From: a virus
Length of the DNA stretch: 27,647 nucleotides
Virus record (IMG/VR): IMGVR_UViG_3300042301_004023
Coordinates: 1 to 27,647 of that record
Direction: 5' to 3' (one strand)
Part shown: positions 4,927 to 27,625 of the stretch, piece by piece
How positions within the stretch are numbered: position 1 is the stretch's first letter
How the letters are laid out: every line of letters begins with the position of its first letter
The notes under the pieces: generated by a model
Told to the model about the DNA's origin: nothing
The model's database searches: none
Seen by the model: the letters and a program-made list of their open reading frames with translations, nothing else
Position numbers and translations under genes: made by a program

Positions 4927-5298
4927 ATGATTAAAACATATAAAGAATTACATGAAAGTATTTTAAACGAAGCGTATAATCCCGATTGGAAAGTTGGTGA
5001 TAAGTTAAAGTTATCTTTTATCGCAAAACCTTCTGATTGGGCAGAAGTAAAGCAACATGCAAAATCTAAAGGCGAGGAAACAATGTGTGTTGTAGAAAAA
5101 GTTATTAGGAATAGCAAAATGTTTCAATCAATAGTTATTGATACATTTGTAAGAATTCCTGAATTAAAAGGAACTGGTGGAAGTGATGGAAAACCTAATG
5201 ATCCCGAAAAAGTTACTGTAATTTATGGAGCAGGAAAAGATGTTATGTTTGTAAATAGTTCTGGATACGATTATCCAAGATATATTGCATTGAATTAA
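4927..5298 (+). CDS. Hypothetical protein with capsid-targeting-like N-terminus
   Basis: A 123-residue protein starting at ATG 4927 after AGAGG. The N-terminus MIKTYKELHESILNEAYN resembles the capsid-targeting peptide of T4 internal proteins (MKTYQEFIAEA), and contains two L-x-E sites (LHE, LNE) of the kind cut by the prohead protease gp21. If cut after LNE, about 108 residues would stay in the head and could be injected into the host. The rest (VGDKLKLSFIAKPSDWAEVK... and a glycine-rich segment) is not recognised. It shares the N-terminal signature, but little else, with the genes at 14568, 16442 and 27284. A late box precedes it. Its stop codon overlaps the convergent GIY-YIG gene by four bases. 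Confidence 0.6.
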   Translation: MIKTYKELHESILNEAYNPDWKVGDKLKLSFIAKPSDWAEVKQHAKSKGEETMCVVEKVIRNSKMFQSIVIDTFVRIPELKGTGGSDGKPNDPEKVTVIYGAGKDVMFVNSSGYDYPRYIALN

Positions 5299-5795
5299 CT
5301 AATTTGTTGAATAGCAACAATATCTTTATGACGAGGTCTTTGATTGTTTAATACTTTGTAAAAGTGTCTTCTATCATAATTATACTTTTCACAAAAATCA
5401 TACATCCCAAATATTTCTTTAGTAGATCCATTATCAAATTCTATCAGATATCTAACTCTATTTTTATCTGATAGAATTTTTCTTTGTTCTGGAGTAACTA
5501 TTCTCCCAACAGTTCCTTCACCACCTTCTGTAAGATTATATCCAGCTTTTTTTGAATTGTATTCTTTTATGAAAAAAGTTTCCATTTCCATAACATGTTC
5601 AAAAGTTGAAGCACAATAGATAACTTCAAATGAAAAATTATCTACTCCATATTTTCTAATTGCTTTACCCACAGCATAGGGAGATTTTTTATGTTCTCTC
5701 CATCTGCGTTTATAGTTATTAGAAATCCCTATATAACATTTTCCATTAATTAAATTTTCTATTTTATATACTGCATAAATATGTGATGCTGACAT
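5295..5795 (-). CDS. GIY-YIG homing endonuclease
   Basis: I choose ATG at 5795 (166 residues, MSASHIYAVYKIENL...) because GGGGA sits six bases upstream; the TTG at 5807 would put that site inside the gene. IYAVYKIENLINGKCYIGIS is the GIY-YIG core with AVY in place of GIY, followed by the catalytic Arg region RRWREHK and a Glu-rich METFFIKEY helix. The NLTEGGEG turn is typical of phage seg-type enzymes. The C-terminal about 40 residues (FCEKYNYDRRHFYKVLNN...RHKD) form a small DNA-binding module also found at the end of the neighbouring HNH enzyme. The enzyme should cut a homologous locus lacking the gene and spread by repair. An AATAAATA box at 5859-5866 on this strand could give late expression, as is common for T4 homing genes. 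Confidence 0.85.
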   Translation of the reverse strand: MSASHIYAVYKIENLINGKCYIGISNNYKRRWREHKKSPYAVGKAIRKYGVDNFSFEVIYCASTFEHVMEMETFFIKEYNSKKAGYNLTEGGEGTVGRIVTPEQRKILSDKNRVRYLIEFDNGSTKEIFGMYDFCEKYNYDRRHFYKVLNNQRPRHKDIVAIQQIS

Positions 5796-5818
5796 ACTGT
5801 TCCCCAAATAATGTTAGA

Positions 5819-5898
5819 GTCGTTAGAGTTTCTCCTACTCGTGAACGACATATATAACTATTTATTGAGATAAAAATGACAGAACGGAATTTAAATAT
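5819..5898. repeat. Degenerate copy of the DUF4815 gene leader and start codons (direct repeat, copy 1)
   Basis: Bases 5859-5898 match 6879-6918 at 38 of 40 positions and include the ATG and first eight codons of the structural gene (here reading MTERNLNI). Upstream, 5819-5824 GTCGTT pairs with 5844-5849 AACGAC, matching in position the GTCTAT/ATAGAC pair of copy 2. The frame from this ATG (5876) runs on and stops at about codon 30, so this copy is dead. Its right end overlaps the 3' end of the HNH gene. Confidence 0.85.
5859..5866 (-). promoter_or_regulatory. Late promoter box AATAAATA for the GIY-YIG gene
   Basis: On the minus strand this reads AATAAATA, one base from the T4 late consensus, about 63 bp before the GIY-YIG start codon. 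The same bases form part of the duplicated leader, so the duplication may have supplied the promoter. Confidence 0.4.
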
Positions 5899-6805
5899 TT
5901 CTTTTCTTAGTAATTTCTATAACATCTTTGTGACGTTTTCTAGAACCATTTACTACAAAATATAAATTTCCAGAATTATACCCATTTTCTTTAGCCCATG
6001 ATGTTAAATTAGTAGTTTCGTATTTTTCTCCATTTTCCTTGATTATGGTGTATATAAAATGACAACGACTTACAGAAGCTTTTATTCTTAATTCCGGATT
6101 ATCAATATATGTTTGTTTAATAGATTTAGAAATTTTTTCTGAAAAATTTCTATCTTGTGATTTAAAAATAGAACATTCTTTCATTTTGGCTTTATACTTT
6201 TCGCACTGCCACAATTTCTTAGAGTTTTTTCTATGTTTTTCTTTATACTCTTCCGATCGCATTATTTTTTTCATTTTTTCTTTAAACTCTTCACACTGCC
6301 ACATTTCTTTACAATTTTTCCTATGTTTTTCTTTACATTCTTCAGATCGCATTATTTTTTCCATTTTTTCTCTATGTTCTTTATTCTTCCATTTATCAGT
6401 AACAATTTTTGATTGATGTGTTGAAAAATTTTTAGTGAGAGTTTCATAAATTCTAGAACTTTTGCATGTGTATCTTTTATGATTTTTCCTGCTATTTAAT
6501 ATACACATACAGTGAAACGCATGGGTCATGCTTTGATTCCGAAACGCTTTCCATAACATCCAATGTGCTATAAAATGTTGCCTTGCTGATAGTTTAATTA
6601 TATTCCATTTATGTTTTCTTCCATCTTTAAATTTCGGAAACATACTTTTAGGAAGAATATGATGCGCTTCTGTATATGTTCCTTTTTCTGGAACATTATT
6701 TCTTGCATATTCTATAAGTTTAATGTATCTAGTCAAATAGATTTCCGATACAGGGTTTGATGATTTTAAATGATTTTCTATAAATTGTATGCTATAAATA
6801 GTCAT
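5891..6805 (-). CDS. HNH homing endonuclease with internal 30-residue repeats
   Basis: A 304-residue protein starting at ATG 6805 with AAGGACAG upstream. The HNH core lies in residues 46-81: EAHHILPKSM (His48, His49), WNIIKLS (Asn68) and RQHFIAHWML (His77, His81). Residues about 135-215 hold two and a half copies of a charged 30-residue unit (KEKMKKIMRSEEYKEKHRKN...LWQC), like the NUMOD3-type DNA-binding repeats of homing enzymes. The end (SWAKENGYNSGNLYFVVNGS...RHKD) is the same small module that ends the GIY-YIG enzyme next door. The gene sits between two copies of the structural gene's leader, a strong sign of insertion by homing. Its C-terminal codons overlap the degenerate copy. Confidence 0.88.
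   Translation of the reverse strand: MTIYSIQFIENHLKSSNPVSEIYLTRYIKLIEYARNNVPEKGTYTEAHHILPKSMFPKFKDGRKHKWNIIKLSARQHFIAHWMLWKAFRNQSMTHAFHCMCILNSRKNHKRYTCKSSRIYETLTKNFSTHQSKIVTDKWKNKEHREKMEKIMRSEECKEKHRKNCKEMWQCEEFKEKMKKIMRSEEYKEKHRKNSKKLWQCEKYKAKMKECSIFKSQDRNFSEKISKSIKQTYIDNPELRIKASVSRCHFIYTIIKENGEKYETTNLTSWAKENGYNSGNLYFVVNGSRKRHKDVIEITKKRNI
6204..6383 (-). repeat. 90-bp tandem repeat inside the HNH gene
   Basis: The motif cactgcc recurs at 6204 and 6294, exactly 90 bp apart, and the bases between repeat with scattered changes. The period equals 30 codons, so the repeat lengthens the DNA-binding arm without shifting the frame. Confidence 0.7.
6793..6800 (+). promoter_or_regulatory. Late promoter box TATAAATA for the structural gene
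   Basis: An exact T4-type late box on the plus strand, about 95 bp before the DUF4815 gene ATG. It lies inside the first codons of the oppositely oriented HNH gene. The resulting leader would include the GTCTAT/ATAGAC dyad. A similar CATAAATA at 5774-5781 precedes the degenerate copy. Confidence 0.5.
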
Positions 6806-6840
6806 GTAAGCTGTCCTTGTGATTAATATTTTAGGGTAGA

Positions 6841-6918
6841 GTCTATAGGAGTTAGGGTTCCGTGATAGACATTAATATTATTTATTGAGATAAAAATGAC
6901 AGAACGGGATCTAAATAT
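6841..6918. repeat. Leader and start codons of the DUF4815 gene (direct repeat, copy 2, functional)
   Basis: Partner of the repeat at 5819-5898, offset by 1020 bp in the conserved part. GTCTAT (6841-6846) can pair with ATAGAC (6865-6870) across an 18-base loop. Both arms of this pair differ from copy 1, but pairing is kept. Confidence 0.85.
6879..6886 (-). promoter_or_regulatory. Late promoter box AATAAATA for the HNH gene
   Basis: The minus strand reads AATAAATA about 73 bp before the HNH start codon. It lies within the plus-strand leader of the structural gene, so transcription in both directions would start in this short region. Confidence 0.4.
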
Positions 6919-12834: not shown

Positions 12835-12897
12835 GATATAATTCCTTATGTGAAAGTTTTAATTTTTAAGGTGATTTAATAACCGCCTCATAAAACT

Positions 12898-12926
12898 AAT
12901 ATAACACTTTTAAACTTACTTGTAAA
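12898..12926 (-). promoter_or_regulatory. Early promoter module P1 (TTTACA, 17 bp, extended TATATT)
   Basis: Minus strand: TTTACA (12926-12921), 17-bp spacer, TATATT (12903-12898) preceded by TG one base upstream. The conserved leader AGTTTTATGAGGCGG follows at once, then a dyad with one mismatch, then AAGGAAT and the ATG at 12834. The A/T-rich sequence upstream of -35 is also conserved with modules P4 and P5. Confidence 0.85.
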
Positions 12927-13139
12927 GCACAAAATGCAATAAAATTAAAAATAATTTCGTTTCCTTAGTCATTTCTATTAAAACCATCAAAAAGTCACTT
13001 TTTAAACCTTATAAATCAATAGGTTACAGCACCGAAATTTTCTGACCCTTATAGGGGTAGCTTAGTGAATTTTTAACTTTCTAAAATGGATAAAAAGTTA
13101 CTTAGAAATGTAGGTAAATCAAGGGGTTGAGAGTATTCC

Positions 13140-14567: not shown

Positions 14568-14918
14568 TTATTTTGTAAAATTATTTTTGTCGTATGAACG
14601 AGTCAATAATAATAATTCACTATATGCTTTAGAAATAATTTCATAAGCTCTATTAAAATCTGACATATTAGTTGTATCTTTAATTCTACCAGTTGAAAAA
14701 CTAATCTCAACATTATGGCCATCATATGTTTTATCAATATTTAATTCTATTGTAGGAATAGTGCTTTTTTCAATTTTTGCATACGCACGAATTTCACCAT
14801 CATCTTCAATAATAACTTTACCGCCTAATTTATTATATATTGTTTTAATTTTGCTCTGAATATCTTCAACAGATCTATTCAAATTAGTTACTTCGTTTAA
14901 TTCTTTATATGTTTTCAT
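14568..14918 (-). CDS. Capsid-targeted-like protein (paralogue of 27284-27625)
   Basis: A 116-residue protein. MKTYKELNEVTNLNRS matches the pattern of T4 internal head proteins (MKTYQEFIAEA), with LNE as a possible prohead-protease site. The first 28 residues are the same as in the protein at 27284-27625 apart from one change; the rest is about half identical (KLGGK, IELNI, FSTG, KAYSELL). The mature part is mixed alpha/beta and is not recognised. Upstream are both an early module (14986-15014) and an exact late box (14950-14957). No strong ribosome site is visible: the ATG follows an A-rich run. Role inferred: packaged in the head and injected, where T4 relatives inhibit host nucleases or modify host enzymes. 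Confidence 0.6.
   Translation of the reverse strand: MKTYKELNEVTNLNRSVEDIQSKIKTIYNKLGGKVIIEDDGEIRAYAKIEKSTIPTIELNIDKTYDGHNVEISFSTGRIKDTTNMSDFNRAYEIISKAYSELLLLTRSYDKNNFTK
14848..14918 (-). repeat. 71-bp direct repeat, copy 1 (5' end of capsid-targeted-like gene)
   Basis: Identical to 27555-27625 at 70 of 71 bases, in the same orientation. Beyond this stretch the two genes have diverged to about half identity at the protein level, so the repeat is a sharply bounded block covering the capsid-targeting-like peptide and the next about 14 codons. Confidence 0.85.
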
Positions 14919-14949: not shown

Positions 14950-14957
14950 TATTTATA
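14950..14957 (-). promoter_or_regulatory. Late promoter box TATAAATA
   Basis: Exact late consensus on the minus strand, 31 bp before the ATG at 14918 and inside the leader of early module P2. This gives the gene a late start as well as an early one. Confidence 0.55.
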
Positions 14958-14985
14958 AAGGTGATTATCACCGCCTCATAAAACT

Positions 14986-15014
14986 AATATAACACTTTTA
15001 AACTTACTTGTAAA
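14986..15014 (-). promoter_or_regulatory. Early promoter module P2
   Basis: Minus strand: TTTACA (15014-15009), 17-bp spacer, TG-extended TATATT (14991-14986), then leader AGTTTTATGAGGCGG and the perfect dyad GGTGATAATCACC. It drives the single gene at 14568-14918. Confidence 0.85.
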
Positions 15015-15027
15015 GTAAAAAATACAC

Positions 15028-15035
15028 AATAAATA
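15028..15035 (+). promoter_or_regulatory. Late promoter box AATAAATA of gene 15, almost leaderless
   Basis: Only six bases separate the box from the ATG at 15042. T4 late transcripts start about six bases after the box, so the mRNA would begin at or next to the start codon. There is no ribosome site. Confidence 0.6.
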
Positions 15036-15041
15036 ACATTT

Positions 15042-15827
15042 ATGTTAAACACCCCTTTCTATAATGCTTCTATAAGAAAATATGCTGCTTCTTTCGGGAA
15101 ACTCTTTTCGAATATTTCTATCATTAGAGGACAAGAATTAAAGAAAGTTCCCATAGCTTTTGAAAGTAGACAACAATGGTTACAGAGATTAAATCAAAGA
15201 AATACTATTGATGACTCTAATGCAGAAGTTAAGATGACCCTTCCTAGAATGTCATTCAATATTTCTGGCTTTTCATATGATACGGAAAGAGCAACTTCTA
15301 AATTTACTAGTTCATATCATAATACTAATAATGTTACGAAAAGGCAATTCAGAAGTGTTCCTTATAATATTGATTTTTCATTGAATATTGTTTCTAATAG
15401 CATTACAGATACCCTTCAAATTATAGAGCAAATCATACCTTATTTTAATCCAGAATATCACCTGAATATAAAGGATAATCCTCTTACAGAAGAAAGCTCT
15501 GCACTTCCTCTAACTTTAAATTCTTCTAGCTTTGTGAGTGATGTAGAAGGATTCGTAGGACAACGAAGATACACCTTTGCAGAACTACAATTTACTCTAC
15601 AAGGTAATTTTTACTTTGGTAGCGAAACTGGTCATCTAATAGAATATGTTGATGTTAATTTATATAGCATGGACGAAAATGAAGAAATTAATGAATATCT
15701 TGCTAAATTAGAAATTGATGCACAAGATATTAATTTTGAAACGACTTTTTCTGATAATACAAATATTAGCGCAGATAATATATATAACATTATAGAAACA
15801 ATAACAGAATATCAAGTCAATGAATAA
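15042..15827 (+). CDS. 15: Tail sheath stabiliser and completion protein gp15
   Basis: A 261-residue protein. FYNASIRKYAASFGKLFSNI at the N-terminus matches T4 gp15 (FYNSSFRRYATLMGDLFSNI) closely. VPIAFESRQQWLQRLN matches VPITYASKEHFMMKLN, TLPRMSFNISGFSYD matches ILPRINLHLVDFSYN, and IIEQIIPYFNPEYH matches IVEQILPYFQPHFN. Length is close to T4 (272). In T4 a gp15 hexamer caps the finished tail tube and sheath and receives the head. As in T4 the terminase small subunit follows. The ATG has a late box six bases upstream and no ribosome site. The final codons overlap gene 16. Confidence 0.92.
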   Translation: MLNTPFYNASIRKYAASFGKLFSNISIIRGQELKKVPIAFESRQQWLQRLNQRNTIDDSNAEVKMTLPRMSFNISGFSYDTERATSKFTSSYHNTNNVTKRQFRSVPYNIDFSLNIVSNSITDTLQIIEQIIPYFNPEYHLNIKDNPLTEESSALPLTLNSSSFVSDVEGFVGQRRYTFAELQFTLQGNFYFGSETGHLIEYVDVNLYSMDENEEINEYLAKLEIDAQDINFETTFSDNTNISADNIYNIIETITEYQVNE

Positions 15828-16441: not shown

Positions 16442-17050
16442 CTATTTTATAGTTTTTCCAGGAGTTCCTATCATAACTTTAAAGACATATTCCTTACCGA
16501 GTTTTCTTAAATAACCATAATCATTAACGTATGGGTATTTGGAAATGGTCAACTTAGCGTCTTCGGGAATTTCACCTTTATAATTTTTGATAGGAATTAT
16601 ATCATCTTCTTTTAAAATTTTAGATACATCTTTAGGTTCTATCATAAATTGTTTGATGATGTTTTCGGGAATAGTCTTTAATAGAATACCTAGTGCAGTT
16701 TTAGATTTTTCACCATAAGAACGAAAAATATCTGCTTTATACATTTCTACAGCTTTTTTCTTACCTTCTTCAGTTCCGTCTGTAGCACTAGCAACAGATT
16801 TCCTCCCACTCTTGTCTTTATATAAAACAACTGCATTTACTTTTCCATCTTTAATAGACATTTTCCACATAGGTAAATCCAACATAGATTCCTTTTTCTC
16901 AAATCCACTTCCCTTAATACCTCCTATAGGAGCATATGAGGATTGTATAATATCCCATACTTGGTCTAAATATTTTTTCTTTTTATCCAAAGCAGTAACA
17001 CCAATAGCATTGACAAATGATTCTTGTAGAAATTCTTTGTAGTTTAACAA
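16442..17050 (-). CDS. Capsid-targeted-like protein with TTG start
   Basis: A 202-residue protein. The start is TTG at 17050, overlapping the stop codon of the hydrolase gene (17044-17046); the next in-frame ATG would remove over 50 conserved-looking residues. The N-terminus M-LNYKEFLQESFVNAIG fits the capsid-targeting pattern (x-x-Y-K-E-F-x-x-E) with LQE as a possible prohead-protease site. The body (VWDIIQSSYAPIGGIKGSGF, WKMSIKDGKVNAVVLYKDKS, GRKSVASATDGTEEGKKKA) has the strand-loop order of an acetyltransferase-like (GNAT) fold, and I remember similar proteins of unknown function in other T4-like phages. Function is unproven. It is coupled to the upstream hydrolase and both come from module P3. 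Confidence 0.6.
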   Translation of the reverse strand: MLNYKEFLQESFVNAIGVTALDKKKKYLDQVWDIIQSSYAPIGGIKGSGFEKKESMLDLPMWKMSIKDGKVNAVVLYKDKSGRKSVASATDGTEEGKKKAVEMYKADIFRSYGEKSKTALGILLKTIPENIIKQFMIEPKDVSKILKEDDIIPIKNYKGEIPEDAKLTISKYPYVNDYGYLRKLGKEYVFKVMIGTPGKTIK

Positions 17051-17607: not shown

Positions 17608-17656
17608 ATAATTTCCTTTAGTTGTAAAGTGATGACTATCACCGCTTCATAAAATT

Positions 17657-17685
17657 ACTATAGCATTTTTAAACTTACTTGTAAA
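17657..17685 (-). promoter_or_regulatory. Early promoter module P3
   Basis: Minus strand: TTTACA (17685-17680), 17-bp spacer, TATAGT (17662-17657), leader AATTTTATGAAGCGG and a GTGAT/ATCAC dyad. The -10 is the least canonical of the six modules and lacks the TG extension, so it may be weaker. It lies between the o-spanin stop codon and the hydrolase gene. Confidence 0.8.
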
Positions 17686-17688
17686 GCA

Positions 17689-18045
17689 TTATCTTTCAGT
17701 TTCGTAATATTTTTTATATTCTATAACTATTTTTTCCAGTTCTTTAATATGATTTTCTAACGCTTGTGTATTGAGTGAAATATTCTCATAATTCTTTGGT
17801 GTTACACATATGAGAGTTGGGAGTTTCCCGCTATCAGTAAGTTCTAAAAATTTACTATTACTATTATTGCTAGTTAATACTGTAAAAGAAACTTCATTAA
17901 TTTTAGGAGTTTCAGGAATATCCAAATCTAGTGCTGGTTTTTCTATATATACTTTTTCTACCTTGTTGGGCGAATTCGAGACACATCCACTAACAATCAG
18001 TAAAGTTAGAATTAAAACAATCTGTTTTTTTCTTGCTTGCATCAT
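17689..18045 (-). CDS. o-spanin (outer-membrane lipoprotein, Rz1-like)
   Basis: A 118-residue protein. A basic start MMQARKKQ, a hydrophobic segment IVLILTLLI, and the lipobox VSGC with Cys21 show export and lipid attachment to the outer membrane; Ser22-type sorting is not blocked (the residue after Cys is Val). The mature part has a Pro-rich stretch and a C-terminal helix (LENHIKELEKIVIEYKKYY) that could pair with the i-spanin coiled coil. It begins inside the i-spanin gene in another frame, a 56-base overlap, which is the classical Rz/Rz1 nested layout. Together the two proteins fuse the inner and outer membranes at the end of lysis. Confidence 0.82.
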   Translation of the reverse strand: MMQARKKQIVLILTLLIVSGCVSNSPNKVEKVYIEKPALDLDIPETPKINEVSFTVLTSNNSNSKFLELTDSGKLPTLICVTPKNYENISLNTQALENHIKELEKIVIEYKKYYETER

Positions 18046-20845: not shown

Positions 20846-20902
20846 AGTAAATTCCTTTTGAAAGTTATTTTTGAAGTGATTTAATCACCGCTTCATAAAA
20901 CT

Positions 20903-20931
20903 AATATATCACTTTTAAACTTACTTGTAAA
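20903..20931 (-). promoter_or_regulatory. Early promoter module P4
   Basis: Minus strand: TTTACA (20931-20926), 17-bp spacer, TATATT (20908-20903), leader AGTTTTATGAAGCGG and the perfect dyad GTGATTAAATCAC. Sequence upstream of -35 (TTTTATTGCATTTTATGC) is shared with P1. Drives 20597 and the methyltransferase. Confidence 0.85.
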
Positions 20932-20955
20932 GCATAAAATGCAATAAAATTGAAA

Positions 20956-21585
20956 TTATTTTTCTATAAACTTGTGTTGTTGTAATATAGAAGGAACACT
21001 ATATTCGTAAGTTTTTGATACTAATTTATTTTTTTCTACTGCATAATATTTTAAATTATACTTTAACTCTTTTTCTGATACATAGTAATTTCTATATGCA
21101 GTTATAAAATCATCATGTTTATATTTTTCCGGCATTGCTTGATATATTTTTGATGGTTCTATAAAGGGTAAATTAGGTATATTATCTGGAGTATATTTTA
21201 GATACGGAAGGAGGTTTTCAACAACATGTGATTTTTCAAAAACTTCATTATTTTTAATTCCTCTCCCGTATCTAATCCTATATTCTGTGCATAGTTCTTT
21301 AAGTAATGAATATAGAAACTTATAATTTCCTGATGATTGTCTAAGCCATATATTACATGGGTGTGATTGATGTGAAACTTTATATAGAATATCTTCTCTA
21401 TTATCAGGGAGTTTCCAGTGTTTCTTAAGTTTTCCATTAACTTCTGTCATAATTAATTCCCCGTCAAGAATTCTATGAGCTGTTCCTAACATTTGACACG
21501 TCTCCAAGATCATTTTCACGACATGTTTGTTGTTATGCAGATATGCACATTCAGAAACATTACGAGATAGAAAAAATATATTCAT
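20956..21585 (-). CDS. Conserved viral protein of unknown function (NKHVVKMILET family)
   Basis: A 209-residue protein. MNIFFLSRNVSECAYLHNNK and HVVKMILETCQMLGTAHR, then HQSHPCNIWLRQSSGNYKFL, YRIRYGR and IYQAMPEKYKHDDFITAYRN form a pattern I recognise from many phages and giant-virus genomes (D/N-KHVVKM-x-LE-x-x-Q-x-L-x-x-x-H ... HP...W...S...Y-x-WL ... MP-x-x-Y). The invariant His, Glu, Trp and Tyr suggest an enzyme. It is sometimes labelled a pyrimidine-dimer glycosylase, but it does not look like T4 DenV to me, so I leave function open. AAAAGGAAT precedes ATG 21585. It lies 23 bp after the SleB gene; no own promoter is seen. Confidence 0.7.
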   Translation of the reverse strand: MNIFFLSRNVSECAYLHNNKHVVKMILETCQMLGTAHRILDGELIMTEVNGKLKKHWKLPDNREDILYKVSHQSHPCNIWLRQSSGNYKFLYSLLKELCTEYRIRYGRGIKNNEVFEKSHVVENLLPYLKYTPDNIPNLPFIEPSKIYQAMPEKYKHDDFITAYRNYYVSEKELKYNLKYYAVEKNKLVSKTYEYSVPSILQQHKFIEK

Positions 21586-26057: not shown

Positions 26058-26122
26058 AATATAATTCCTTATTTTAAGGGTTGTTTAATTTATAAAGGTG
26101 ATTATCACCGCCTCATAAAACT

Positions 26123-26151
26123 AATATAACACTTTTAAACTTACTTGTAAA
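26123..26151 (-). promoter_or_regulatory. Early promoter module P5
   Basis: Minus strand: TTTACA (26151-26146), 17-bp spacer, TG-extended TATATT (26128-26123), leader AGTTTTATGAGGCGG and the perfect dyad GGTGATAATCACC. The leader and dyad are identical to those of P2. Drives 25722-26057. Confidence 0.85.
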
Positions 26152-26195
26152 GCACAAAATGCACGAAAATGAAAATATTTTCTATAAAATAGTGC

Positions 26196-27283: not shown

Positions 27284-27625
27284 CTATTTGTTGATTTTGT
27301 TATAAGTGTCAATTAGAGGTAATAATTCAGAATATGCTTTAAAAATTATTTTATAATTATTATCAAATTCTTGTATTTCTTTAATACTTTTAAATTCCCC
27401 TGAAGAAAATTTCAATTCAATTTCATGCTCCATTTCTTTTCTAATAATAAGTTCTATTCGTGGAGTTTTATTAATATCAAATTTTATATATCCGTGTATT
27501 CTATCATCATTCTGTTTAGTAAATTTTCCTCCTAATTTTTTAAATATAGTTTCTATTTTGCTTTGAATATCTTCAACAGATCTATTCAAATTAGTTACTT
27601 CGTTTAATTCTTTATATGTTTTCAT
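27284..27625 (-). CDS. Capsid-targeted-like protein (paralogue of 14568-14918)
   Basis: A 113-residue protein. MKTYKELNEVTNLNRSVED and the next residues are the same as in the 14568-14918 protein except for one Lys/Glu change; after residue 28 the two have diverged (KLGGK, IELII, KFSSG, KAYSELL remain). The N-terminus fits the T4 internal-protein capsid-targeting peptide with LNE as a possible prohead-protease site. Unlike its paralogue it has a good ribosome site (AAAAGGAAAT). The window ends 22 bases after its ATG, so its promoter is not seen. The core is alpha/beta and not recognised. Confidence 0.6.
   Translation of the reverse strand: MKTYKELNEVTNLNRSVEDIQSKIETIFKKLGGKFTKQNDDRIHGYIKFDINKTPRIELIIRKEMEHEIELKFSSGEFKSIKEIQEFDNNYKIIFKAYSELLPLIDTYNKINK
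27555..27625 (-). repeat. 71-bp direct repeat, copy 2
   Basis: Matches 14848-14918 at 70 of 71 bases, same orientation, 12.7 kb apart. With the hairpin terminator about 300 bp away in both places it forms a duplicated cassette flanking genes 15 to 32. Confidence 0.85.

Follow-up and report, generated by a model that had tools for sequence, protein, structure and literature searches.

An HNH homing endonuclease gene was probably inserted, in antisense orientation, near codon 8 of the gene for a DUF4815 virion structural protein, leaving the displaced start of that gene as a stub on its left while a second 5′ end on its right restores the gene. The junction lies in the window, by which we mean the whole 27,647-nucleotide stretch of viral DNA analyzed here, and its features are collected in Table 1.

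Table 1. Features at and around the DUF4815 junction of the window
Feature	Position	Strand	Match or remark
ORF, 123 aa	4927-5298	+	Stop overlaps the GIY-YIG stop
GIY-YIG homing endonuclease gene	5295-5807	-	Pfam GIY-YIG, 3.7e-11; PHROG homing endonuclease, 3.9e-30
Left leader, upstream part	5813-5858	+	Weak likeness to 6834-6878
Left (dead) copy of the DUF4815 gene start	5859-5898	+	Leader, ATG (5876) and first codons
Mob-like HNH homing endonuclease gene (predicted)	5891-6805	-	PHROG 655, 1.2e-36; antisense to DUF4815; stop in left copy
Two tandem 90-bp units in the HNH gene	6176-6355	-	Coding for 30-aa repeats
Right leader, upstream part	6834-6878	+	
Right (working) copy of the DUF4815 gene start	6879-6918	+	Leader, ATG (6896) and first codons
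DUF4815 virion structural gene (VrlC-like), 1727 aa	6896-12079	+	Pfam DUF4815, 1.6e-64

Duplicated start of the DUF4815 gene

The two copies of the gene start agree at 38 of 40 positions, exactly where the sequence-only reading had placed them. Matches this good are expected by chance about 6e-10 times in the window, and the repeat is present only twice in the whole record. Each copy starts 17 bp ahead of the ATG and runs on through it to the second base of codon 8, so that the earlier description of an ATG and eight codons was right as to the ATG and nearly so as to the codons. On the gene side similarity is lost abruptly, with 11 of 32 positions identical beyond the repeat. On the upstream side it fades: an alignment of the upstream parts of the two leaders has 32 identical positions and 17 gap positions, a likeness equalled by 4 to 8 of 1,000 dinucleotide shuffles. 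Given this weak likeness over the 45 bp 5′ of each copy, the duplicated tract may reach ∼86 bp.

The left copy leads only into an ORF of 29 codons and the right copy into the full DUF4815 gene, and the HNH gene sits between them with the last 8 bases of its ORF inside the left copy. An end of the target gene is present on both sides of the endonuclease gene. This layout, including the stop codon in the dead copy and the GIY-YIG gene to the left of both copies, had been described from the letters and was borne out. A group I intron or intein was rejected because the left ORF ends after 29 codons and the right copy has its own ATG and a full gene. We also considered whether the leader might derive from the 3′ end of a gp8 gene, which lies directly upstream in annotated relatives, and rejected this; by eye, no frame is kept in both copies.

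By family match and by its HNH residues, the product of the gene between the copies is a predicted free-standing Mob-like HNH homing endonuclease and presumably has endonuclease activity. Residues H48, H49, and N68 and the motif QHFIAHWML are conserved in 11 of 11 aligned sequences; a Pfam search of the product gave no HNH match. The GIY-YIG domain of the neighboring gene, for which a later ATG at ∼5795 is an alternative start, scored 43.6 bits in Pfam against a cutoff of 22.6. A scan of the flanks of this GIY-YIG gene for repeats revealed no duplication, a search for its relatives in viral contigs confirmed none, and the 123-aa ORF beside it had no match among phages. The HNH and GIY-YIG products align without gaps over 47 residues near their C termini (score 76; best of 500 shuffles, 42), and they therefore probably end in one type of DNA-binding domain, which could partly account for the presence of both genes at one junction.

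For the target gene, 80 DUF4815 loci were gathered from viral contigs, with best segments ∼45% identical. Where the 5′ end was present, the end of another gene usually lay close upstream, a gp8-like gene in annotated Pelagibacter phages; the window's leader was found at none of these loci. Two loci carry a sense-strand GIY-YIG gene between the upstream gene and DUF4815 (L017, 770-1348; L011, 186-722), with a stop codon that overlaps the DUF4815 ATG (TAATG) and no duplication seen. Endonuclease genes have thus settled at the 5′ edge of DUF4815 on at least two occasions. At ∼45% identity or less, none of these relatives is close enough to stand in for an empty site of the window, and DNA-level relatives were found neither by megablast (25 kb) nor with a 26-mer or a degenerate peptide pattern.

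Flanking duplications at other endonuclease loci

We searched the regions flanking other endonuclease genes, most of them HNH genes, for direct duplications. Five of 25 testable loci had one, versus 1 of 65 control genes (Fisher p 0.006); the loci, having been gathered by similarity, are incompletely independent, and one positive (L118; a 61-bp repeat, not clearly coding) is weak. At two of the other positives, L084 (3646-5817) and L087 (3612-5283), a full gene, for PRPP synthetase and a P-loop kinase, respectively, is overlapped at its end by an antisense HNH gene, which is followed by a displaced C-terminal stub. The third, L089 (2067-5240), has the gene order of the window: a 51-residue N-terminal topoisomerase stub, an antisense HNH gene overlapping the stub, and the full gene. 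Compared with the endonuclease-less relative L146, the stub matches at 34 of 51 residues and the N terminus of the full gene at 26 of 50, the simplest interpretation being that the native end is the stub.

The remaining positive locus (L111) lies at nrdG. The nrdD/nrdG junction of T4-like phages was queried and matched 806 records, many of them empty, that is, without an endonuclease gene. These endonuclease-less phages settle the polarity, showing which end is native and which is foreign. The sequence-only reading implied that relatives lacking endonuclease genes should also lack the repeat, and at nrdG this was the case, with a single nrdG start in all four empty phages examined (L134, L135, L139, and L140). 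In phage F25, the HNH gene opens with the native nrdG start (39 of 39 nt identical to KIT03), and nrdG itself opens with a different, recoded 39 nt (30 of 39). The Klebsiella phages Roth04 and UTI-K1 likewise have an HNH gene that opens with the Klebsiella native start (38 of 39 and 37 of 39 nt identical to Roth68), followed by a recoded nrdG start encoding MNYDRIYPCCFVN; nucleotides 40 to 90 of nrdG are native (51 of 51 in Roth04). The loci with this division, a native nrdG start on the HNH gene and a recoded one on nrdG, are L111 (2986-3853), L138, L112, and L137.

The recoded start is common to Escherichia and Klebsiella phages, and a nearly identical one is present in FL44, which has a GIY-YIG gene at the junction. 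Recoded nrdG starts matching at a level of at least 90% occur in 89 records, and most of the matches listed coincide with an annotated endonuclease. At least two phages, U5 and ESh24, look like exceptions, which counts against the insertion reading: they have the recoded start next to nrdD, with no endonuclease annotation there. In T4, the first seven codons of mobC are shared with nrdG. The nrdG data establish that the arrangement of a stub plus a replacement exists in well-sampled isolates, with known polarity. Other phages show this layout at genes unrelated to DUF4815, and it may therefore be a route taken repeatedly by selfish endonuclease genes to enter essential genes without breaking them.

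Origin of the second gene start

Taken with these parallels, the window is best explained by entry of a free-standing HNH gene into the DUF4815 gene, antisense, after about codon 8. The inserted unit would measure 1,020 bp, the spacing of the repeat, and would comprise the HNH gene and a second leader, start codon, and first codons; the left copy would be the leftover stub of the former 5′ end. Its replacement would most likely be the allele of another phage, acquired when a break cut by the endonuclease was repaired by recombination, and repair from a divergent donor allele would leave the HNH gene flanked by two forms of the junction. With its leader, ATG, and codons restored by the right form, the DUF4815 gene would be unharmed by the insertion, and recombination between the 38/40 copies could cleanly excise the element. 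That the HNH gene was inserted with duplication of the junction, as first read from the sequence, appears well supported, mainly by the parallels with native and foreign copies, and the further proposal that the duplicate came from a relative fits. The GIY-YIG gene may have arrived before the HNH gene, as that reading also proposed, or after it. The duplication and where it lies are established for the window, and a like architecture is established for other phages, with native and foreign ends told apart at nrdG. As the copies differ at only two of 40 positions, the case for a probably foreign right copy depends on the weak likeness of the upstream parts and on analogy. Near the insertion, sequence differences may also lower re-cleavage. 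In the SegH/Hef system, SegH reportedly cuts DNA both with and without its gene, which would weaken this idea of protection.

A rather unlikely alternative, to which we nevertheless give some weight, is that repair of the HNH insertion, through slippage or unequal repair, made two copies of the junction from the phage itself, after which the dead copy drifted. The 95% identity of the 40-bp core suits such a local duplication, as do its two differences, at each of which the working copy has a GC pair and the dead one an AT pair. One of these gives the left copy Asn where most of the DUF4815 family has a conserved Asp, so that the left copy may have decayed and no longer be the unaltered native version. 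Against local duplication, changes are unevenly spread, with 2 in the 40-bp core versus many, with gaps, in the 45 bp upstream; p is ∼8e-5 with gaps counted as changes and 0.25 (not significant) without them, and the argument holds only if the upstream part is homologous. Moreover, in both the nrdG and the L089 parallel the two copies represent distinct alleles.

We consider it very improbable that the two copies are regulatory elements of one kind, such as promoters for the two leftward endonuclease genes, rather than an insertion scar. One copy does lie upstream of each endonuclease gene, with AATAAATA directed at the gene, and NATAAATA occurs upstream of genes 12 times in sense and 5 times in antisense orientation; however, these motif counts are small in a genome that is 70% AT, and the repeat extends through the ATG and seven codons and is absent elsewhere in the window. 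An assembly artefact joining two strains is less probable still, to the point of being hardly credible. The window comes from one metagenomic contig, and the closest conspecific contigs, L107 and L108 (99.8 to 99.9% identical), begin at 12990 and 13008, short of the junction. A join at the repeat, however, would remove the HNH gene rather than give the observed order, the unique junctions at 5899 and 6878 both lie outside the exact repeat sequence, and isolate genomes have similar structures.

Insertion of the HNH gene with a second gene end, the reading we prefer, suggests that free-standing phage endonuclease genes can invade essential genes without an intron or intein by bringing or acquiring a spare gene end. 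More tentatively, as a conjecture more likely wrong than right, phage HNH genes may commonly travel as cassettes with a recoded end of the essential gene they target, which upon insertion repairs that gene and renders the site resistant to recutting, a natural cleave-and-rescue element. The native and replacement nrdG ends are separable in laboratory T4-like phages, which makes mobility, gene rescue, and protection from recutting directly testable.

Known systems and other features of the window

The nearest known match is provided by the mobile ORFs of fungal mitochondria, in atp6 of Allomyces and atp6, atp9, cox2, and nad3 of Glomus (PMC3630166). There, as in the window, an endonuclease gene lies between a displaced native end and a foreign end that keeps the gene functional, but the fungal cases involve 3′ ends, mitochondria, and LAGLIDADG or GIY-YIG enzymes, whereas the window has a 5′ end, a phage, and an antisense HNH gene. 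T4 mobC and SegH at nrdD-nrdG, and their relatives, share with the window HNH and GIY-YIG genes on one junction and a duplicated or recoded nrdG start; they differ in their sense orientation and in that the stub gives the HNH endonuclease its own start codon. T4 mobA with the gene 60 bypass cassette also combines an endonuclease gene in an essential gene with a target change thought to protect from cleavage, but there the gene is split in two with a bypassed 50-nt insert, in place of a duplicated end (PMC5009743). As described in a T4 review that covers endonuclease classes with shared targets, split genes, and co-conversion, mobE of Aeh1 is likewise a Mob HNH gene within an essential phage gene, nrdA, which unlike DUF4815 remains as two polypeptides (PMC2988022). 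A word search of that review returned no mention of duplicated gene ends, nor do they figure in the passages found of a phage survey (PMC10448857); this literature coverage is partial, and we claim no priority.

A 96-nt intergenic element occurs in five copies in the window (12862-12957, 14950-15045, 17621-17716, 20867-20962, and 26087-26182). It reads CTTTACAAGTAAGTTTAAAAGTGTTATATTAG...GGTGAT..ATCACC on the minus strand, lies mostly upstream of leftward genes, and is likely a repeated promoter with a hairpin. Contigs L107 and L108 break at almost one place, just past a copy of this element, probably at assembly breaks. Four ORF products have similar starts: MIKTYKELHES (4927-5298), MKTYKELNEV (14568-14918 and 27284-27625), and LLNYKEFLQES (16442-17050). 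We take these starts to resemble the capsid-targeting peptide of T4 internal proteins (MKTYQEF), and the four products are possibly ejected internal head proteins.
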